64,000 nucleotides of DNA from Euryarchaeota archaeon (GTDB taxonomy: Archaea > Thermoplasmatota > SW-10-69-26 > JACQPN01): NCBI GenBank assembly GCA_016207515.1, contig JACQPN010000002.1, positions 200,350 to 264,349 of the forward strand, read 5' to 3'. Below, one piece after another: positions 3,227-13,598 of this stretch. The notes beneath the pieces are model-generated. The model was not told where the DNA came from. It was given only the letters and a program-made list of their open reading frames with translations, and searched no databases. Made by a program: the position numbers and the translations under genes. The first letter of the stretch is position 1. Each line of letters starts with the position of its first letter.

Positions 3227-4888
3227 CTAGTCTCCCCTCGACCCGCCTGAATCGGGCTCAACGACCTCCACTTCGAACTCCAGCTTCTTGAACTCGTCCG
3301 GGCGTTGCATGATGACGTACACCTGCCAAACGCCGGGTTCCGTGAAAAAGGCATCCTCGATCACCCACTGGTTCTCGCGCACCCTCTCGGGGATGACGAT
3401 CGTCTCCGGCTCCCCGGTCCCCGGGGGGGCGAACTTGAGTCCGACTTCCGTCGAGTTGGGTAAGGGCTCGGAGGAGAGCGGGTGAAGCGCCAGACTGACG
3501 CGTTGGATGCCGACGGTCACCGGGTTCGGCCGGATGCTCAAGACCACGTGCGTCGTCTTCGTCTCTTGCGCGAGTTCCAGCGGCACTGGCCCCTGCGTGC
3601 CCGTCTCCACATCGGCGGAAGGCGGGGCGGTCGACGCAAGAAGCCCCGCCGCACCGACGACAATGAGAAGCAACGACAGCTCGACAGCCACGACGCGGCG
3701 CAGCGTCGGCGAAGAGGCCTCGCCCAGAAGGAGCCGTGGGCCCAACTTGTATTGGTTGTAAGCGCCGAGACAAATGAGCGGCAGGATGAGCGACGCCTTG
3801 AGTATCACGAGTAGACCGTAGTCGGCGGATAGTAGGCGGTCGACGGTCCCCACATGAAGCCACGCGGCGTACGTGCCCGTCAAGAGGATCGCAGCGACGC
3901 TCCCGACCGCGATCGGCGAGAACCGCGTCACGAGTCTTCCCGCCTCCGGCGGCTTCGCCGTGGATAGGACAAGGGCGAAACTCACTAGTCCGCCCACCCA
4001 TATCGATGCCGCCGTCAGGTGGACGAGGTCGGCGGCCACCGCAAGCGCGGTCTGTTCCCGAAGTGCCGCCGCGTGGCTGCCGCTTGCCGTGAGGTAGAGC
4101 GCGGCCACCCCGAGCCCGCCAGTGGCGGCGAGCGCGAGTCGTCGGTATTTTTCAGGCGCGTAGTAGGCGGCGACGCCGCAAGCCGCTGCAAGCGCAAGCG
4201 CTCCGGAGCGCGCGACGAGGAATGTGCCGGCGTCGGTCCCGGCGGCGACTTCCACGGGGGCGGCGATACGCGAGGCGAGGCTTTGAAGCACGTAGAGGCC
4301 GGCGGCGGCTCCGACAAGACCTAGGATGGCCGGGGGAGCCGCCAGTCGACGCGGCGTATCGCCTTTGCGAAGGATCACCAAGGCGAAGGCAGGGACGCCG
4401 ACGCTCGCGAAGACGCCCATGTAGAACAATCCTCGCGCAATCCCTTCGTTCTGCACGACCTCAAGCGAGTGCTCTGCGTGCTCGTGGCTTTTCACCTCGT
4501 CGGTGAACTTCAAAGTCGCGTTCCCGACGCTGAAGACGAAGGAGCCTCTCGCCGTGTGCGTATCAACGGAGAGCGTCCTCCAATTGACGACGTATATGCC
4601 GTCGACGAGGGGCTGCGTCGGGACCCGGATGACGTTCGATTCCGCTTCATCGAACTCCGTCGTTCCAATGCTCACGATCCCTTGGTCGAGGCCCCGCACC
4701 TCGGCTTGGGTGTACTCCCGTTCGACGTCTTCCGTGAAGCGGATCTCGACCTCGGCCACCCCCCACTCGGCGTGCCCGTTCGGGGAAGGGTCGGCGCTTT
4801 GAAGGACGGCGTGCGCGGCCGCTTCGCCGGAGAATAGGATGAGAAGAAGCGCGCAGACGGCGATCAAGGGACCGTTCGCGCGCTTCAT
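3227..4888 (-). CDS. CopC-CopD-YtkA fusion, copper resistance/uptake membrane protein
   Basis: A 553-residue protein. A signal peptide precedes a CopC domain whose mature N-terminus is HAVLQSADPSPNG; its first residue is the conserved copper-binding His, and a second candidate ligand lies in SVDTHTARGSF. Residues about 150-420 form about eight membrane helices of the CopD type, with LVHLTAASIWVGG typical of CopD. The last 100 or so residues (TTHVVLSIRPNPVTVGIQRV and following) resemble the YtkA/FixH-like beta domain. CopC binds copper outside the cell and CopD moves it through the membrane; the three-part fusion is known in archaea and Gram-positives. It lies 16 bp downstream of the secreted-protein gene at 4905-5594 on the same strand, so the two form an operon. 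Confidence 0.85.
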   Translation of the reverse strand: MKRANGPLIAVCALLLILFSGEAAAHAVLQSADPSPNGHAEWGVAEVEIRFTEDVEREYTQAEVRGLDQGIVSIGTTEFDEAESNVIRVPTQPLVDGIYVVNWRTLSVDTHTARGSFVFSVGNATLKFTDEVKSHEHAEHSLEVVQNEGIARGLFYMGVFASVGVPAFALVILRKGDTPRRLAAPPAILGLVGAAAGLYVLQSLASRIAAPVEVAAGTDAGTFLVARSGALALAAACGVAAYYAPEKYRRLALAATGGLGVAALYLTASGSHAAALREQTALAVAADLVHLTAASIWVGGLVSFALVLSTAKPPEAGRLVTRFSPIAVGSVAAILLTGTYAAWLHVGTVDRLLSADYGLLVILKASLILPLICLGAYNQYKLGPRLLLGEASSPTLRRVVAVELSLLLIVVGAAGLLASTAPPSADVETGTQGPVPLELAQETKTTHVVLSIRPNPVTVGIQRVSLALHPLSSEPLPNSTEVGLKFAPPGTGEPETIVIPERVRENQWVIEDAFFTEPGVWQVYVIMQRPDEFKKLEFEVEVVEPDSGGSRGD

Positions 4889-6029: not shown

Positions 6030-6455
6030 TCAAAGCAGGTCCACGTGGCTTGGGATGACCGTATGCCGCACCAAGTGTATCCCCTTGAGCGCCGAAAGCG
6101 CCGAGTAGAAGCTTGCCACACGCGACGACGCGCCGTCCACGACGAAGACCTCCACGCAGTCGTTGCCTCGAAGGTGCGCATGCATCATGTTCCGGATGAT
6201 CTCGCCGTAGTCGTGCTTCACGGCGGCGACGCGCCTCTCGTCGGACTTGTCGAAGCACACCGCGACGACGGCCTGCTGCTTCGTGGACTTGGAGGCCCGC
6301 TGTTCCGCCACGAACTGCGTCAGGGCCGCCTGGACGGCGACACTGCGCCCGGAAAACGGCGTCTCTTGGACGAGGCGGTCGAGCTCGGAGAGCAGGCTCG
6401 AAGGGATCGAGACCGTGACGGGTTTCGCGTTCGCGTGCTTTGCGCCGGACACCAT
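6030..6455 (-). CDS. nikR: NikR-family metal-responsive repressor (ribbon-helix-helix + ACT-like)
   Basis: A 141-residue protein from ATG 6455, the usual NikR length. Residues about 12-50 form the ribbon-helix-helix DNA-binding domain (PVTVSIPSSLLSELDRLVQ). The C-terminal regulatory domain has H81, H92, H94 and C100 in the context HDYGEIIRNMMHAH...DC; the spacing (11, 2 and 6 residues) is the same as that of the nickel ligands His76, His87, His89 and Cys95 of E. coli NikR. A TTAAG box about 25 bp upstream supports the start. The gene is divergent from a zinc/manganese-type ABC importer, and a TATGA-N16-TCATA palindrome lies between them, matching the known NikR operator. It probably represses the importer when metal is plentiful. 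Whether the metal is nickel, cobalt or zinc is not decided by sequence. Confidence 0.88.
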   Translation of the reverse strand: MVSGAKHANAKPVTVSIPSSLLSELDRLVQETPFSGRSVAVQAALTQFVAEQRASKSTKQQAVVAVCFDKSDERRVAAVKHDYGEIIRNMMHAHLRGNDCVEVFVVDGASSRVASFYSALSALKGIHLVRHTVIPSHVDLL

Positions 6456-6509
6456 GGCACCAAGCCCGTTCACTGGCTTAAGCCCACCGCGGCCGGCACC
6501 TCGCGGCCT

Positions 6510-6535
6510 TATGAAGAATGGCCATTTTCTTCATA
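6510..6535. promoter_or_regulatory. NikR-type operator TATGA-N16-TCATA
   Basis: TATGA at 6510-6514 and TCATA at 6531-6535 are separated by exactly 16 bases, the layout of the E. coli NikR operator (GTATGA-N16-TCATAC). The inner bases add to the symmetry: ATGAAGAA, 8 bases, TTCTTCAT. It lies directly upstream of the TTAATAAG box (6541-6548) of the importer operon and between the divergent regulator and importer genes. A further TTCATAT half site occurs at 6562-6568. Confidence 0.8.
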
Positions 6536-6537
6536 TT

Positions 6538-6548
6538 GCGTTAATAAG
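6538..6548 (+). promoter_or_regulatory. TATA box of the metal importer operon
   Basis: GCGTTAATAAG lies about 50 bp before the importer start and begins only 3 bp after the NikR-type palindrome, so bound repressor would cover the BRE/TATA region. Confidence 0.55.
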
Positions 6549-6593
6549 ACGGGTCGATGGCTTCATATCGGTCGGCCGACTGCCCGTCTTGCG

Positions 6594-7544
6594 ATGAGCG
6601 CGCCGGTACGAAGGGAAGGCGAGAAGGGCCGCTCGCGCTCATCGGCGTCGCGGGCGCCGCTCCTCCTGGCGTTGTTGGTCATCGGCCCCGCCGTCGCGGG
6701 CTGCACCGCGCCTTCGCCGGCCAAGACCGACATCGTTGCCTCCTTCTACCCGGTGCGTTTCCTCGTAGATTCCATCGCCGGGGGAAGGCTATCGGCCATG
6801 ACGCTCGTTTCTCCCGGGGTCGAGCCGCACGACTACGAATTGAAACCCTCCGACGTGGGCGCCATCGAAGGGGCCCGCCTCGTCGCCTACCACGGGGCCG
6901 GACTCGAGGTCTTCGAGGCGCAGGTGAAAGCGCTGGCGGCAGCGGCGGGTGTCGAGGTGGTCGAAGCCTCCCGGGGAGTCGATCGGCAGGTGCGCGACCT
7001 CGGCGAAGAGGGGACCGGCATAGATGCGCACATGTGGTTGGATCCGGTCAGGTTCAAAGCGGAGGCCGCGAACGTCGGGGCCGCAGTCCAGGCGGTGGAT
7101 CCGGGCAACGCATCGTTTTATGCGACGCGCTTCGACGCGCTGGACGAACGACTCGCCGCCTTGGACAGGGAATTCGCCGAAGGCCTTGGGGGTTGCACAA
7201 AGCCGAAGATCATCACGACGCACGCCTCGTTCGGTTACATGGCGGACCGGTACGGTTTCACCCAGTACTCGATAACCGGCTTCGAGCCGGATGCGGAGCC
7301 CTCGGCCGAAAAGGTGAGAGCGGCGGCCGACCTTGCAAGGCGCGAGAACATCACCGTGATCTTTTTCGAGACCCTCGTCTCGCCGAAGGTGGCAAAGGTC
7401 GTCGCCGACGAGATCCACGGCACGGCCGACGTCCTCGACCCCGTCGAGGGGCTCACGGAGGAGGGCGAACGCGCGGGAAGCGACTACATCTCGCTCATGC
7501 GACGGAACCTCGCAAAGCTTCGAGATGCGATGGGGTGCACCTGA
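6594..7544 (+). CDS. ZnuA-like metal-binding lipoprotein of an ABC importer
   Basis: A 316-residue lipoprotein: basic N-terminus, hydrophobic stretch and lipobox AVAGC near residue 36. It is a cluster A-I metal-binding protein. Candidate ligands are His in EPHDYELKPSD, His in AHMWLDP, His in TTHASFGYM and Glu in IFFETLV, as in ZnuA/TroA/PsaA. The acidic-His loop common in ZnuA is absent. Start at ATG 6594 gives a complete lipoprotein signal. It is first in an operon with the ATPase (overlapping) and permease. The NikR-type site upstream implies metal-dependent repression. Zinc is the default guess for the family; nickel or cobalt should be considered because of the regulator. Confidence 0.88.
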   Translation: MSAPVRREGEKGRSRSSASRAPLLLALLVIGPAVAGCTAPSPAKTDIVASFYPVRFLVDSIAGGRLSAMTLVSPGVEPHDYELKPSDVGAIEGARLVAYHGAGLEVFEAQVKALAAAAGVEVVEASRGVDRQVRDLGEEGTGIDAHMWLDPVRFKAEAANVGAAVQAVDPGNASFYATRFDALDERLAALDREFAEGLGGCTKPKIITTHASFGYMADRYGFTQYSITGFEPDAEPSAEKVRAAADLARRENITVIFFETLVSPKVAKVVADEIHGTADVLDPVEGLTEEGERAGSDYISLMRRNLAKLRDAMGCT

Positions 7545-8320
7545 CCTTGGACAAACCCTCAGTCCTCGACCTCACCGGCGTCTCCGTCGACTACGGCACC
7601 GACCGGGCCCTCGAAGCGGCCGACCTCGCCGTCGAACGGGGCGAGTTCGTAGGTGTCATCGGGCCGAATGGTGGGGGGAAGACGACCCTGCTTCGGGCGA
7701 CCCTCGGCCTCGTGCCTGCGAGGGAGGGCTCGATACGGCTTTTTGGGACACACGTGCGCAGTTTCGTCGACTGGTTCCGCATCGGGTACGTGCCGCAAAA
7801 CGCGAGCCATATCGACCCGCAGTTTCCCGCGACCGCTCTCGAGGTGACGATGCTCGGCCGGGTCGGTCGGCGTGGCCTCTTCCGTTGGCTCACGGCCGTC
7901 GACCGGGAAAAGGCCACGCACGCGCTCGAAGAGGTCGAAGCCGCACACCTTGCCGACCGCCTCATCGGGTCGCTCTCGGGGGGCGAGAGGCAACGCGTCT
8001 TGCTTGCCAAGGCGCTCGCCGGGGAGCCCGAACTCCTCATCATGGACGAGCCCACCACGGGTGTGGATCCGAAGGCGCGGTCGGCCTTCTATCGTCTGCT
8101 CGACCATTTGAACCACGAGCACGAACTCACGATCCTACTCATCAGTCACGACACGGAGGCGATCCTCCAAAGCGCCCACCGCATCGTCGCGGTGAACCGG
8201 CGCATTGTCTTCGATGGAGCGCCGGGAGTTTTCCGGGAGCGCGAGAACGTCTTGGGGGTCTACGGCCTCCACGTGACGCACGCCGAAGAAGGACACGGGG
8301 CGGCACGGGGTTCCCCATGA
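7535..8320 (+). CDS. metal ABC transporter ATPase (ZnuC-like)
   Basis: A 261-residue ABC ATPase. It shows Walker A GPNGGGKTT, Q-loop in YVPQNAS, signature LSGGERQR, Walker B LLIMDEP and H-loop ISHD, all intact. The start is taken as GTG 7535, which overlaps the end of the binding-protein gene by 10 bp; TTG 7547 is an alternative. It powers the permease at 8343-9191. Confidence 0.9.
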   Translation: MHLTLDKPSVLDLTGVSVDYGTDRALEAADLAVERGEFVGVIGPNGGGKTTLLRATLGLVPAREGSIRLFGTHVRSFVDWFRIGYVPQNASHIDPQFPATALEVTMLGRVGRRGLFRWLTAVDREKATHALEEVEAAHLADRLIGSLSGGERQRVLLAKALAGEPELLIMDEPTTGVDPKARSAFYRLLDHLNHEHELTILLISHDTEAILQSAHRIVAVNRRIVFDGAPGVFRERENVLGVYGLHVTHAEEGHGAARGSP

Positions 8321-8342
8321 ACGAAGCGCGCGAGGCGTCGAG

Positions 8343-9191
8343 ATGAGCCTCCCGGGCCCCGCGGACGTCTTCGCGTACGACTTCATGGTGCGAGCGCTTG
8401 TCGCCGGCATCCTCGTCGCGTTCCTTTGCGCGCTGCTCGGGGTCTTCACGGTGCTACGCGGCATGGGAATGATAAGCGATGGGCTTGGCCACGTGTCGTT
8501 CGCGGGCGTCGCCGTGGGCCTACTCGTCGGCGCCTTTCCCCTCGAGTTCGCCCTGGTGGCAGCGATCGTCGGGGCCGTGGCGATCCAATTGCTCCAGGAG
8601 CGCGGCCTTCTCAAAAGCGACGTCGCCATCGGCCTCGTCTTCACCGGGGGTCTCGCGCTAGGCATCGCGATCGTGAGCCACGGGCGCGGCCTAGGCGTCA
8701 ACATCTCGAGCTACCTCTTCGGCAACATCCTTGCCGTGTCCGCGGGCGACGTCCAACTAGTCCTCGCGCTCGGCGCCCTGCTCGCGGCCGCGACGGCGTT
8801 ATTCTACAAGGAGTTCCTGTACCTCACTTTCAACGAAGAGGCGGCGCGAGTGAGCGGCCTCCCGGTGGGGGCTCTCAACCTGTTCTTCAGCATCCTCATC
8901 GGCGCGGGAGTGGCGCTCGCGGCGCGAGTCGTCGGCGTTCTTCTAGTGAGCGCCCTGATCGTGGTCCCGGCGGCTGCGGCGCTGCAGGTCGCCCGGAGTT
9001 TCAAGCGGACGCTTGCGGCCGCAGCCGCACTGGGGGTCGTCGCCGTGGTGGTCGGTCTTTACCTCAGTTTCGCCGTCGACATCGCGGCGGGGGCCGCGAT
9101 CGCGCTTGTGAGCATCGGCGAGTTCGCAGCGGCGGCCTCGTGGCGCTTATTCCGTTCGATGCGCTCCGCAAGGGCGCGTAAGACAGCGTGA
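8343..9191 (+). CDS. metal ABC transporter permease, ABC-3 family (ZnuB-like)
   Basis: A 282-residue integral membrane protein with eight or so hydrophobic helices, of the ABC-3 family that carries Zn, Mn or related ions. GMGMISDGLGHVSFAGVAVG (about residues 41-60) is the conserved first cytoplasmic-loop motif of this family. ATG 8343 follows the ATPase stop by 22 bp. Last gene of the importer operon; a GC hairpin overlaps its end. Confidence 0.9.
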   Translation: MSLPGPADVFAYDFMVRALVAGILVAFLCALLGVFTVLRGMGMISDGLGHVSFAGVAVGLLVGAFPLEFALVAAIVGAVAIQLLQERGLLKSDVAIGLVFTGGLALGIAIVSHGRGLGVNISSYLFGNILAVSAGDVQLVLALGALLAAATALFYKEFLYLTFNEEAARVSGLPVGALNLFFSILIGAGVALAARVVGVLLVSALIVVPAAAALQVARSFKRTLAAAAALGVVAVVVGLYLSFAVDIAAGAAIALVSIGEFAAAASWRLFRSMRSARARKTA

Positions 9192-9233: not shown

Positions 9234-10205
9234 TTACCGCGCCTTCGGCGTCGAACGCCCTTCTGAGTCGTGGCCGAACCGCCTTCGCTCGCCACTCGAC
9301 GAACAGAAATGGATGGTCGTGAAGACACCCCCGAGTTCGTTTTCCAATCGGTCGCGCACCTCGTGGGATACGACATCGGCCTCCTCTATGGTCATCTTGG
9401 GAGCGACGGTGAGGTGCAAGTCGAGATGCACGCGGTTAGGGCCCACGTACTCGGCCGCCATCGAGTGGACGCCTTGGACGCCGGAGACGCCCTTCGCCAC
9501 GGTCTCCACGCGGACGTAGTACTCGTGAGCGGGGGACCCTCCGATGAGATACGGCACGTTCGAGAGGAACAGCCGGATGGCGTTGTAGACGATGAGGCCC
9601 GCCACCAGGATCGTCGCGAAGGCGTCGCCCTGGGAAAAGCCGGCGGCCACAAGAGCGATCCCACCCATCGCGGCCGCGACGCCCAAGACGTCGTTCAGGC
9701 TCTCCATGGCCTGCGCCCGGACGACGCCGCCCTCGGCGCGCTGATCTTTGAGGGCGAGGGCGAGTGGCCACAGGAGGAGGACACCGCTACTTCCGAGGAC
9801 CGCGAGCGCGAGGCTGGTGTCGGTGCCAGGGTCATGCGGGCGGCCTAGCGAAAGCATGGCTTCCCGCACGAGGCCTGCCGCGACCAGGAGCACGAACAGG
9901 ATCGACACGAGGACGGCCGCGAGGTTCTCGATCCGCCCGTAACCGAAAGGGTGTTTCTCATCGGGCGGGGCCGCGCTGAAGCGCGCGGCAAGGAGCAGTA
10001 GCACTATCTGCAGGATGTCGGTGAGGCTGTGGAGGGCCTCGGCAAGGACCACCACGAACCCGGTCTGCGCGTAGAGAAGGACCTTGGCAAGAAGCAACAC
10101 GACGGAGACGAAGAGCGCGACACGGATGCTCCTCAGGCGACCCGGTGTGTTTGTGGCGTGGCCGCTGTGGTCGTGCACGCCTCGCCTTAGGTCCGACCGA
10201 TTCAA
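9234..10205 (-). CDS. cation diffusion facilitator (CDF) efflux protein
   Basis: A 323-residue metal/proton antiporter with six predicted helices and a C-terminal cytoplasmic ferredoxin-like domain (about residues 215-300). The helix-2 metal motif is HSLTD (HxxxD), but the helix-5 motif is ESLND (ExxxD), where zinc-type members normally have His or Asp first. The N-terminus has a short His-rich stretch (HDHSGH). The annotated start is TTG 10205; a GTG before HDHSGH is an alternative. It converges on the metal importer operon, so import and export of metal are encoded side by side. Confidence 0.88.
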   Translation of the reverse strand: MNRSDLRRGVHDHSGHATNTPGRLRSIRVALFVSVVLLLAKVLLYAQTGFVVVLAEALHSLTDILQIVLLLLAARFSAAPPDEKHPFGYGRIENLAAVLVSILFVLLVAAGLVREAMLSLGRPHDPGTDTSLALAVLGSSGVLLLWPLALALKDQRAEGGVVRAQAMESLNDVLGVAAAMGGIALVAAGFSQGDAFATILVAGLIVYNAIRLFLSNVPYLIGGSPAHEYYVRVETVAKGVSGVQGVHSMAAEYVGPNRVHLDLHLTVAPKMTIEEADVVSHEVRDRLENELGGVFTTIHFCSSSGERRRFGHDSEGRSTPKAR

Positions 10206-10280: not shown

Positions 10281-11165
10281 CTATGGCGAATCCGGGCGCC
10301 GGCGCTTTGCAAAGGCGGAGAGAGCGATTGCCGCGCCCAGGCCGACCAATAGCGGGTAAAGACCGGTGGCCCCGGGGGTTTGGCGATCCGTTTCGGCCTT
10401 CTTCTCCTCCGAACCCGGAAGGGGGTCGAGCGCGTAAAGGTGCAATATCGGCGTGTCCGAGTAATCGAACCGGCCGGACTCGGAGGAGAAGCGCATGTGG
10501 TACATGCCTCCCGTGCGAAACACCTTGTCGACGCTCCACAACCCCGTTTCCTCCCTCGCCAGTGACGAATCATCGACGTCCACCAGCACACTGTGATCGT
10601 CGCTCCAGTGTTCGAAGCGGACTTTTACGTCCGTGAAAGGGTCCGAACGTGCCCCGGTCGACGCGTTCATCACCTCGAAGGCGAGTCCCACCGTCTTGTT
10701 CGTCGAGGAATCGAGCGACGGGTTCGCGGGCCGTATCCTGAAACCGAGCTCCGGGTAGACCGTGAAGTTGGTGTCGAGGACGTACTTGGTCCGGTTCGCT
10801 TCGAGCGTCAACGTCCCCACGTAGGGCCCGGGCCATTCCGTTCTCCAGAAGGCGCCGAAGACGGTCGGTGATTGGCGTTCGAATGATAGGGTCTCGTTCA
10901 CCTTCCCGGGCAGCACCATCTGGAGCGTGATGTTGAGGTCGGCATCAAGGCCCGATGGCCCGTTCTTCGTGACGAATGCCGAGACGCTCGTGAGCGTCCC
11001 CCTGAAGACGGGCGCCGGGTAGACGTCGACGAAGACCGCGTACGGCCCGGCCGAGAGGCTCTTCGCCTCGCTGAAGCTCTCGACATGCGCGTTAGAAGCG
11101 CCCCCCAGCCAAAGCAGGGCAAGGACCAATCCCGACCGGATCCACCGGCGCGTGCCCGCCTTCAA
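10281..11165 (-). CDS. secreted, C-terminally anchored beta-domain protein
   Basis: A 294-residue protein with an N-terminal signal peptide (cleavage near GGASNAHVE, leaving an exposed His), two beta-rich halves rich in N-x-S/T sites, and a C-terminus with TPGATG, a hydrophobic stretch and AKRRRPDSP that looks like an archaeosortase signal. Its start overlaps the end of the blue copper gene upstream by 4 bp, so the two are co-translated. The domain looks like the immunoglobulin-like/YtkA-type folds seen in copper loci, but I recognise no family. Role in presenting or receiving copper at the surface is inference. Confidence 0.65.
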   Translation of the reverse strand: MKAGTRRWIRSGLVLALLWLGGASNAHVESFSEAKSLSAGPYAVFVDVYPAPVFRGTLTSVSAFVTKNGPSGLDADLNITLQMVLPGKVNETLSFERQSPTVFGAFWRTEWPGPYVGTLTLEANRTKYVLDTNFTVYPELGFRIRPANPSLDSSTNKTVGLAFEVMNASTGARSDPFTDVKVRFEHWSDDHSVLVDVDDSSLAREETGLWSVDKVFRTGGMYHMRFSSESGRFDYSDTPILHLYALDPLPGSEEKKAETDRQTPGATGLYPLLVGLGAAIALSAFAKRRRPDSP

Positions 11166-11665
11166 GCTTTCCTCCGGGACGAGAAGAGCGCAAGGGCGAC
11201 TCCCGCGGCGACGATGGCGAGGGGCGTGGGGCCCGGCGTCGCCTGCGACGACACGGCCGCCACTTCGAGAGCACCGCGCATCCCCGCCGCTTTGTGGCCC
11301 GGGATCGTGCAGTAGTACTCGAAGGTCCCAGGTTCCGTCAACGTGAAGTCGAGGGTCACGGTCGCGTTTGGCGCCATGGGCCCGGTGAAGGCGATCTTTT
11401 GGCCGCAGTCAGAAGAACGGGCGTCGCCGCAAACGAGCAGGTCGTGCTCGGAGGCGCCCGCGTTGAGGATGTTCATCACTATCGTGTCGATCGAGGTCGC
11501 GGCGAGCCTTTCCGGCGCGATGTGGAGCGGGGCCTCGTGCAGGTAGACCGCCTGCTCGATTGTTTTCGACTGGGCGGCGCTCGCGTGGGCCAAGACGCCG
11601 GCCGATCCGAACGCGAGGAGCAATGTGATCGTCCCGACGGCCAATCTGCTGGATACCTTCCGCAT
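11162..11665 (-). CDS. blue copper protein (plastocyanin-like), surface anchored
   Basis: A 167-residue cupredoxin. ATG 11665 gives a normal signal peptide. Type 1 copper ligands are visible: His in SEHDLLV, then Cys, His and Met in YYCTIPGHKAAGM (about residues 121-135). The C-terminus has ATPGPTP, a hydrophobic segment and SSRRKA, an archaeosortase-like anchor. It would carry single electrons outside the membrane. An extra pair of Cys (VCGDARSSDC) may form a disulfide. Divergent from a second cupredoxin of the same length at 11772, and operonic with the downstream gene at 10281-11165. Promoter region contains a GTTC-GAAAA element shared with the gene at 4905-5594. Confidence 0.87.
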   Translation of the reverse strand: MRKVSSRLAVGTITLLLAFGSAGVLAHASAAQSKTIEQAVYLHEAPLHIAPERLAATSIDTIVMNILNAGASEHDLLVCGDARSSDCGQKIAFTGPMAPNATVTLDFTLTEPGTFEYYCTIPGHKAAGMRGALEVAAVSSQATPGPTPLAIVAAGVALALFSSRRKA

Positions 11666-11771
11666 GATGAGGTTTGAACATTTTTCGAACGCCCATAATC
11701 CTTTCGGTGGCCGGACGAGGGAACGGCCGGCAATCCTTAAACGAAAGGGTTCGCTCCAATTGCCGGTGAAG

Positions 11772-12275
11772 ATGCGTCCGGCAGTCCCCATCGCTGCAAC
11801 GCTTCTTCTCGTCGTCGCCCAGGGCGCTTCGGGAAGCGGCGTAGTGACGGTCGATGTACTTTTCCATGACGGCGGCGGCCACGAGACGCCTTACCATATC
11901 GCCCCGTCGGAGTTCAACGCGACCGAGGGGGATCTCCTCGTCCTAACGGTCGTGAACCCCGGCGGAAACCAACAGGGGCACGATCTCGTGGTGGAGCGTC
12001 ACCGGGACGCAAAGACGATGCTCCTGCAACCGGGGAAAAGCGAGACGCTGCGTTTCACGGCGGGCCCCGCCGGGAATCACACGTACTACTGCACGGTTCC
12101 CGGGCATCGGGAGGCCGGGATGGCGGGGACGATGCGGATCGCGGCGGGCCCCGTGGGCGACGAGGGCGATGGAAAGAGGACGGGCGTCGCGCCCGTGCCG
12201 GGCGTCCCGCTGCCGTTGCTTCTCATAGGCGTGCTGCTTCTTGTCAGGGCAAGGCGCCGGCGAAGAGCGATATGA
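11772..12275 (+). CDS. blue copper protein, surface anchored
   Basis: A 167-residue cupredoxin, divergent paralogue of the gene at 11162-11665. ATG 11772 starts a signal peptide ending near GASGSG. Ligands: His in QQGHDLVV, then Cys, His and Met in YYCTVPGHREAGM. The C-terminus VPGVPLPLLLIGVLLLV followed by RARRRRRAI is an anchor of the Pro-Gly/hydrophobic/Arg kind. Likely an extracellular one-electron carrier serving the multicopper oxidase or the CuA protein next door; partner unknown. Confidence 0.87.
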   Translation: MRPAVPIAATLLLVVAQGASGSGVVTVDVLFHDGGGHETPYHIAPSEFNATEGDLLVLTVVNPGGNQQGHDLVVERHRDAKTMLLQPGKSETLRFTAGPAGNHTYYCTVPGHREAGMAGTMRIAAGPVGDEGDGKRTGVAPVPGVPLPLLLIGVLLLVRARRRRRAI

Positions 12276-12356
12276 AGAGGGTGCACTCGGGTGGACCAGG
12301 AGCCCGCAAGCCGCCAACAAAGGTTAAATAAGGTCGAAGGGTAAAGTCGCGTGTCG

Positions 12357-13598
12357 ATGAATCGTAGAGCCATCTTGGCGACCCTTACGGGACTCACTCT
12401 CGTGGTCATCGCGCTGGTCCCCGGCCCCGGTTGGGGTGACGCGACCCACGAGCATCGCGCACCTACGGCGGACCCGTTGCGCTTCGACATGACGCAGTTC
12501 CTCACGGGCGAGAAAGGGATGACGCCGCTCGCACCGACGGCCGCCGCCGCAACGGTGATCGATGCGCCGGAATCATCGCCCGTCCAATCCGAGCCGGTCA
12601 AGTTCGTGACGAAGGCCGGGAGCAATTATTCGAAACGTTTCCTCGGCAAACTCACGCTCTTCGTGCAGTTCGACGCCCCGCCCGTCGGAATCAACGGCAC
12701 AGGCCAACCAGGATTCGGTGTCGCGTTGGGAAAGAACGGAGAGGAATTGACGTTCAGCCAATTCACGCCCTCCGATCCGATCGCCCAGAACGGGACAGCG
12801 CCCTCGAAGTTCGAGATCGGCATCCTCGGCTTCGACCTCCCGTGGAAGGCCGGGGATACGATCGAGATCTGGGTCTACTACTACGGCTTGAACAAGGCCG
12901 AGAACCCGACGGTCCATTATCTCGTGGGGAACGGAACCTACAATTCGTCGCTTTGGATGCCGATGCAGTACGCGAGCATAGACGAGTTGGGGCACAAGCA
13001 CGGGAACGCGAAGCATTTCCTGTACTCGGAATTCGACCCGTTCGACCTCAAGCGGCCGTGGCCGGGCGCCGAGCCGGTGGGAAACGACAGCATCATCATC
13101 AACGTCCGCACCTTCCACTACGCCTTCACGCCGGACCCCATAATCGTCAAGAACGGGACCCACGTCTATCTCCGGTTCTACTACGATCCGGCGCTCGACG
13201 ACTTCACCAGCGACAGCGCCGAGGGGCTCCCGCCGGCGCCCACGAAAACGGACCCGGACGATCGAGGATCCTTACACAGCTGGTCGACGAGTTACGACCC
13301 GGCTCTCACGACCCGGATCTATGCCGGGGAAGTGGTCGTCGTGGATTTCATGGCCGATCGGCCTGGCACCTATCCGACGGCGTGCACCGTGTATTGCGGG
13401 AAGAGTCACTACAACATGCAAGGCGGGCTCACGATACTCGGCGAGAATGGGACAACCGATGAGGACGGGCCAGAAATTGATGGGTGTGAGGGGCCCGATT
13501 GCGTCGCAAAGCCGACCCCGACGCCCGGATTCGAGGCGTTGTCGGTACTGTTCGCGGCCGCCGTCATCGTGTTCGCGCGACGCCGAAAGGCAATATAG
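12357..13598 (+). CDS. surface protein with a CuA (cytochrome oxidase subunit II-like) domain
   Basis: A 413-residue secreted protein from ATG 12357 (GTG 12351 is also possible; a TTAAATA box at 12324-12330 fits both). After a signal peptide and about 220 residues of unfamiliar beta-rich sequence comes a cupredoxin domain (about 245-365). It has His in LHSWSTS and CTVYCGKSHYNM, that is C-x3-C-x3-H-x2-M, the complete ligand set of the dinuclear CuA centre of COX2 and nitrous oxide reductase. It lacks the two N-terminal helices of COX2 and instead has a C-terminal TPGFEALSVLFAAAVIV plus ARRRKAI anchor. No oxidase subunit I gene is nearby. It probably relays electrons outside the membrane, but its acceptor is unknown. 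Confidence 0.82.
   Translation: MNRRAILATLTGLTLVVIALVPGPGWGDATHEHRAPTADPLRFDMTQFLTGEKGMTPLAPTAAAATVIDAPESSPVQSEPVKFVTKAGSNYSKRFLGKLTLFVQFDAPPVGINGTGQPGFGVALGKNGEELTFSQFTPSDPIAQNGTAPSKFEIGILGFDLPWKAGDTIEIWVYYYGLNKAENPTVHYLVGNGTYNSSLWMPMQYASIDELGHKHGNAKHFLYSEFDPFDLKRPWPGAEPVGNDSIIINVRTFHYAFTPDPIIVKNGTHVYLRFYYDPALDDFTSDSAEGLPPAPTKTDPDDRGSLHSWSTSYDPALTTRIYAGEVVVVDFMADRPGTYPTACTVYCGKSHYNMQGGLTILGENGTTDEDGPEIDGCEGPDCVAKPTPTPGFEALSVLFAAAVIVFARRRKAI

Follow-up and report, generated by a model that had tools for sequence, protein, structure and literature searches.

The NikR-like regulator P0001, encoded in the window (the whole 64,000-nucleotide stretch of DNA analysed here), probably belongs to an archaeal branch of the NikR family that is separate from canonical NikR and governs the uptake of zinc, here through half-site repression of znuABC. 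Sequence comparison revealed the branch itself, its linkage to ABC-3 and ZIP transporters, recurrent half-sites with a preferred spacing, intact metal ligands in the regulator, and a zinc-type binding protein in the adjoining importer.

P0001 (147 aa) lies on the minus strand at 6030..6473 and reads from a GTG start at 6473, with an ATG start possible at 6455. A gap of 120 bp (6474-6593) separates it from the plus-strand znuA-znuC-znuB operon (6594-9191), which encodes a metal-binding lipoprotein-like substrate-binding protein (SBP) with three zinc-type His residues (znuA, P0002; 6594..7544, +), an ATPase recognised by both Pfam and NCBIfam (znuC; 7547..8320, +), and an ABC-3 permease (znuB; 8343..9191, +). 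In Pfam searches ZnuA matched PF01297 (E=2.5e-71) and the permease matched PF00950 (E=1.7e-64), bearing out the ABC-3-type transporter that the first-pass annotation had placed beside the regulator. The three components stand in one operon, and zinc transport is predicted for it. The 2.67-Mb genome, which is 98% complete, holds one NikR_C protein and one ZnuA. A cation diffusion facilitator gene (9234-10205, -) converges on znuB and could encode a partner efflux pump. Copper-protein genes also occur near the locus: a multicopper oxidase (838-2175), a CopC/CopD fusion (3227-4888), and plastocyanin-like proteins within 11162-13598, although the protein at 12351-13598 gave only insignificant cupredoxin matches.

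The NikR fold of P0001 is clear from its sequence matches. NikR_C was the sole Pfam domain found (PF08753, E=1.2e-14), with no sign of a Fur-family (Zur) fold, and residues 20-133 were similar to P. horikoshii NikR (2bj1, E=1.1e-11), in keeping with the ribbon-helix-helix plus NikR_C architecture of the E. coli, H. pylori, and P. horikoshii proteins. Alignment identified the ligands as His-87, His-98, His-100, and Cys-106, spaced by 11, 2, and 6 residues like His-76, His-87, His-89, and Cys-95 of E. coli NikR (ligand names from PMC7055735), so that the four NikR ligands at exact spacing reported earlier from the sequence were confirmed. All four are invariant in 9/9 class-level regulators. P0001 nonetheless scored below every NCBIfam NikR cut-off (TIGR02793, 56.2/175.45 bits; PRK02967, 63.6/83; PRK04460, 59/105). 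It also differs from NikR in a three-residue deletion before the first ligand, shared by branch members from the phylum, in having K/R rather than Q ahead of His-87, and in carrying Val-45 and Ala-49 at the positions of Glu-30 and Asp-34. The residue before the first-ligand His is mostly Arg or Lys in branch members from the phylum, whereas it is Gln in canonical NikR. Read from alignment columns, the 26 aligned branch members all have the second His and the Cys, and their third ligand is His (20 members), Asp (3), or Cys (3).

To place P0001 we compared 60 genomes of the phylum, its own included; a NikR_C protein was present in 52 of them. In a 71-row tree P0001 fell within a clade of 32 (support 99/93), with canonical, P. 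horikoshii, and E. coli NikR outside it; this tree was built without L072 (broken or partial), L019 and L074 (near copies), L016 (a long frame), and the second L040 hit. When plasmid relatives were added, with L056, L072, L019, L074, and the second L040 hit left out, the clade comprised 38 rows (support 98/93). One protein of each branch was found in 12/60 genomes (G010, G014, G020, G021, G024, G028, G030, G032, G038, G043, G057, and G058), the G014 branch member being L074, which was omitted from both trees because it nearly duplicates L069. This co-occurrence suggests a division of labour between the two branches. One genome (G020) also carries a canonical-branch NikR paralogue that lacks the metal ligands (L052:4797-5273). 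A side group of NikR-like regulators (L047, L053, L067, and L068) is adjoined by ZIP in 3/4 cases; in L053:4749-9192, L067:2919-5438, and L068:4824-9436 the regulators stand by ZIP genes or a P-type metal ATPase, and their Cys lies one residue nearer the HxH.

The transporters next to the two branches differ sharply. An ABC-3 or ZIP gene lies within 1.5 kb of 27/32 branch members (21 ABC-3, 6 ZIP) versus 2/33 canonical NikRs (Fisher p=4.6e-11), the canonical count being one regulator per locus and leaving out L091, the G014 locus of L019. Five of the 32 branch members had no recognised transporter within this distance. ZIP was assigned by Pfam at L036, L058, L061, L063, and L064, and at L041 by a profile built from confirmed ZIPs. 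The closest relative of P0001, L036 (65% identical), faces a ZIP gene and not znuABC. As ABC-3 and ZIP are unrelated transporter types swapped beside close relatives, their shared substrate is most simply zinc. Near canonical NikRs we found NicO (L070), CbiM (L084), a CobW/HypB/UreG-family GTPase (L106), HypA (L096), and a nickel-insertion protein family (L083). Two membrane proteins, L045:5548-6549 and L073:2841-3494, each adjoin a NikR-like regulator; they are 37% identical over 221 aa, share an FHxxHPIHV motif, have no significant Pfam match, and are candidates for an unnamed zinc permease family. At L045 a TTAATAA pair is phased at 22 bp. In the haloarchaeon Halorubrum ezzemoulense, a plasmid-borne clade member is divergent from two COG0523 GTPases (L120:846-3394), for which the zinc chaperone ZigA was the top NCBIfam model, with scores under the cut-off.

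All four nickel ligands are intact in P0001, which, judged by these residues in isolation, could therefore sense nickel. The alternative that fares best is a true nickel (or cobalt) sensor placed over an ABC-3 importer of nickel or cobalt. We consider it unlikely. In its favour, the two canonical NikRs with ABC-3 neighbours (L088 and L095) adjoin divergent SBPs, and other organisms of the phylum may therefore possess a nickel importer of the ABC-3 type. Cobalt, cobalamin, CbiM-type, or NMT1-type ABC transporter genes were also found near some haloarchaeal clade members, plasmid-borne ones among them. The nickel/cobalt transporters listed for archaea in PMC2667541, as far as its accessible part goes, are NikMNQO, NikABCDE, and NiCoT, not ABC-3. 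The ZnuA-like proteins at L088:321-1301 and L095:3730-4800 lack the second and third zinc His and are candidate nickel-type ABC-3 importers, whereas in branch-linked SBPs His 2 and His 3 are kept in 15/16 rows covering those columns (the exception being L042). The phylum may thus hold a nickel-tuned ABC-3 importer under canonical NikR and zinc-type importers under the branch represented by P0001. The window SBP, unlike those of L088 and L095, has the zinc His set, and the pairing of ZIP with L036 speaks against nickel as well. Of the four nickel systems searched for, urease, NicO, and CbiM were not found in the 98% complete assembly, and the sole NiFe-family match, considered as a NiFe hydrogenase, looks like NuoD of complex I. 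The neighbour of the regulator is ZnuABC rather than any nickel transporter or enzyme. The first-pass annotation had left two options, that the regulator senses another metal or that the importer carries nickel or cobalt; we favour the former because the branch is zinc-linked, its nearest relative is paired with ZIP, the SBP has the zinc His residues, and none of the nickel genes searched for was found. E. coli NikR binds zinc yet responds solely to nickel (PMC7055735), and a true zinc response in P0001 would therefore need a changed coupling.

The SBP also bears on a regulator of manganese or iron uptake, which we regard as improbable. Carriers of Mn and Fe are known from both the ABC-3 and the ZIP family, and the weak NCBIfam matches of the importer include MntC/MntA models. 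The three zinc His of P0002, located in the PHD, DAHMW, and THASFGY segments, align with the His residues of YcdH and of the zinc protein AdcA, which are its closest solved SBPs. Its third ligand is thus His, whereas Mn-type SBPs have Glu in this position. The best NCBIfam models, AztC for znuA (151.2/350 bits) and AztB for znuB (178.3/280 bits), are both zinc models, although the scores fall below the zinc-specific cut-offs. In addition, Mn would be a poorer fit to a NikR-type His3Cys site than Zn, Ni, Co, or Cu. A His-rich loop is a common feature of zinc SBPs; in the alignment the loop of P0002 contains no His, which counts against zinc, while such a loop is present in most relatives. No ZIP was found in the genome, so that within the families covered by the search (ABC-3 and ZIP) znuABC is its sole predicted zinc importer.

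In the gap between regulator and znuA, positions 6510-6535 read TATGAAGAA-N8-TTCTTCATA, a dyad with perfect 9-bp arms around 8 bp. The first-pass annotation had described this 26-mer as TATGA-N16-TCATA and as nearly the E. coli NikR site; the exact sequence is present, the true dyad is longer than claimed, and 10/12 bases are identical to the E. coli operator GTATGA-N16-TCATAC (PMC7055735), only the outer G and C differing. Within the dyad are half-site 1 (TATGAA, 6510..6515, +) and, 20 bp further, its partner half-site 2 (TTCATA, i.e., TATGAA on the minus strand; 6530..6535, -). Additional to the palindrome is half-site 3 (TTCATA, 6562..6567, -), located 32 bp, or about three helical turns, past half-site 2. 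Between half-sites 2 and 3 lies TTAATAA (6541..6547, +), which lies 47 bp ahead of the znuA start and, judging by position, is a candidate TATA element of that gene; L036 has CTATTAA at the equivalent place. A sigma-70 promoter scan found no promoter, the sigma-70 model being inapplicable to archaea.

In a genome-wide search for further copies of the site, as proposed in the first-pass annotation, exact TATGA-N16-TCATA occurred as a single copy in the 2.67-Mb genome, in the regulator/znuA gap, and TRTGAA-N14-TTCAYA likewise gave one genome match, in the same gap, versus 0 for the reversed control. Looser copies were no commoner than chance, with 3 matches of up to two mismatches in the window versus 4.3 expected, and one-mismatch copies at 8 further places genome-wide, where the reversed control pattern gave 10. 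Little could thus be learnt from approximate matches to the E. coli operator: the loose motif is worthless for a genome-wide search, whereas the exact copy within the gap is not. A direct-repeat pair found elsewhere in the genome (L117) falls within an ORF and was dismissed as a chance occurrence.

We then turned to relatives, using a class-level set of eight regulator/transporter gaps (the window and L036-L042) with boundaries set by hand; the class was sampled by seven genomes, none from the family of the window organism. A gapless inverted-repeat scan of upstream regions gave scattered dyads only, because half-site orientation varies among these gaps, and a k-mer and spacing approach was used instead. 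In an unbiased count of all 6-mers, TGTGAA/TTCACA was the most enriched (10 copies in 7/8 gaps, 0.19 expected), followed by TATGAA/TTCATA (9 copies in 6/8 gaps, 0.13 expected). Their consensus, TRTGAA, is present in 8/8 gaps. The half-site had first been read from the window and L036, hence the six remaining gaps were counted apart, and these contained 13 copies versus 0.57 expected. In other families of the branch the enriched element was TTAATAA, with 21 copies in 8/9 group B upstream regions (1.83 expected) and distances near 22 and 32 bp. Group C was excluded from the k-mer counts, save L046 and L062, as its upstream regions are mostly coding (the regulator follows znuB as the final gene).

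The spacing of the half-sites is more constant than their sequence. Start-to-start distances were 20 and 32 bp in the window, 21 and 31 in L036, 23 and 76 in L037, 21 and 51 in L038, 22 in L039, and 22 and 34 in L041. The phasing test drew on six of the eight class gaps (the single half-sites of L040 and of L042 yield no distance) and on 13 further upstream regions; pooled, 21/28 adjacent distances fell at 20-23 or 31-34 bp, spacing windows chosen after inspection of the data, against a random mean of 3.1, and 0/5000 random placements scored as high. The first set alone had 9/11 phased distances (random mean 1.5) and the second 12/17 (random mean 1.7), each with 0/5000. Ten phased half-site pairs occurred within the gaps and none elsewhere in 125 kb around the class loci. 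The step of the E. coli operator is also 21 bp, in agreement with a NikR operator built of two half-sites two helical turns apart, and NikR signals of other bacteria differ in sequence and even in orientation yet keep their length (PMC545781), which is consistent with the varied half-sites and recurrent spacing of this branch.

These data qualify two earlier claims. The first-pass annotation had named missing conservation of the palindrome in relatives as a refutation, and the outcome is split: the exact palindrome is not kept, because the orientation and sequence of the half-sites vary, whereas TRTGAA with its two-to-three-turn spacing is. The label of a bacterial-type NikR operator was likewise overstated, since the E. 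coli-like TATGA is one half-site variant, the same class also using TGTGAA and other parts of the branch TTAATAA. ABC-3 and ZIP transporters are not known to be copper importers, and this, together with phased half-sites that are missing at the copper genes and found nowhere in the 64-kb window outside the gap, makes a copper-responsive regulator very improbable despite the copper-protein genes on its flanks and the Cu(II) binding by NikR in vitro described in PMC7055735. A palindrome arisen by chance, with the regulator acting at some other place, would fit the chance frequency of loose matches and the absence of the exact palindrome from relatives, but this reading is hard to reconcile with half-sites that are enriched and phased in independent gaps, and we give it very little weight.

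For zinc-responsive control by P0001 we propose the following mechanism, in which metal dependence and the sign of regulation are inferred from NikR. When zinc is plentiful, the metal-loaded tetramer would bind the TRTGAA half-sites at 6510 and 6530, two helical turns apart, one tetramer likely spanning both. The third half-site (6562), three turns on, would extend occupancy over the TATA element; with half-sites 2 and 3 bound, TTAATAA would be bracketed and TBP/TFB excluded. The bound regulator would thereby keep znuABC, and probably its own gene too, from being transcribed. When zinc is scarce, the regulator would be released and the ABC-3 importer made.

The idea of a zinc-responsive NikR homologue is already in print. 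In Methanothermobacter a NikR homologue stands beside ZnuABC (MTH603 / MTBMA_c09830), the same gene pairing as in the window, and was suggested in 2011 to be possibly zinc-responsive (PMC3087415). The accessible part of that paper offers this as a single-locus remark with no operator or family analysis, both of which are covered here. Our literature search, thin on subscription papers, found no paper defining the branch, its half-sites, or their spacing. What is new is the branch as delineated by sequence, with its predicted operator code and transporter swaps. It stands apart from NikR as a separate clade with zinc-type transporter targets and, in some other members, Asp or Cys as third ligand. 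The predicted role of P0001 resembles that of Zur, which represses znuABC in a zinc-dependent manner in bacteria but belongs to the unrelated Fur family. The importer resembles ZnuABC, AdcABC, and AztABC in combining SBP, ATPase, and ABC-3 permease genes within a single operon and in a His3 zinc site, and differs in falling below the specific NCBIfam cut-offs and in a ZnuA without the His-rich loop. According to a 2009 survey, within its accessible part, the archaeal genomes sequenced by then had no Zur, and a DtxR-like ZntR was predicted in Methanosarcina (PMC2770081).

On a wider reading, for and against which we see the balance as even, the branch would be the hitherto missing counterpart of Zur in an entire archaeal phylum and in some of the haloarchaea. 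It would be a NikR-fold zinc sensor built on a re-used nickel site, with H, H, and C kept and the third His changed to Asp or Cys in some families. Such a sensor would read half-site arrays in helical phase, at two and three turns, with sequences that have diverged (TRTGAA, TTAATAA) over a preserved spacing, and would regulate interchangeable zinc carriers, namely ABC-3, ZIP, and perhaps an unnamed membrane family.

The control of zinc uptake is poorly known in most archaea, and a NikR-family zinc sensor, if true, would supply a counterpart of Zur. It would also show a square-planar nickel site turned to zinc with the same ligands. Annotations of archaeal proteins as nickel-responsive regulators may be wrong across the whole branch, and the operators and transporter pairs described here are concrete objects on which these predictions can be tested.
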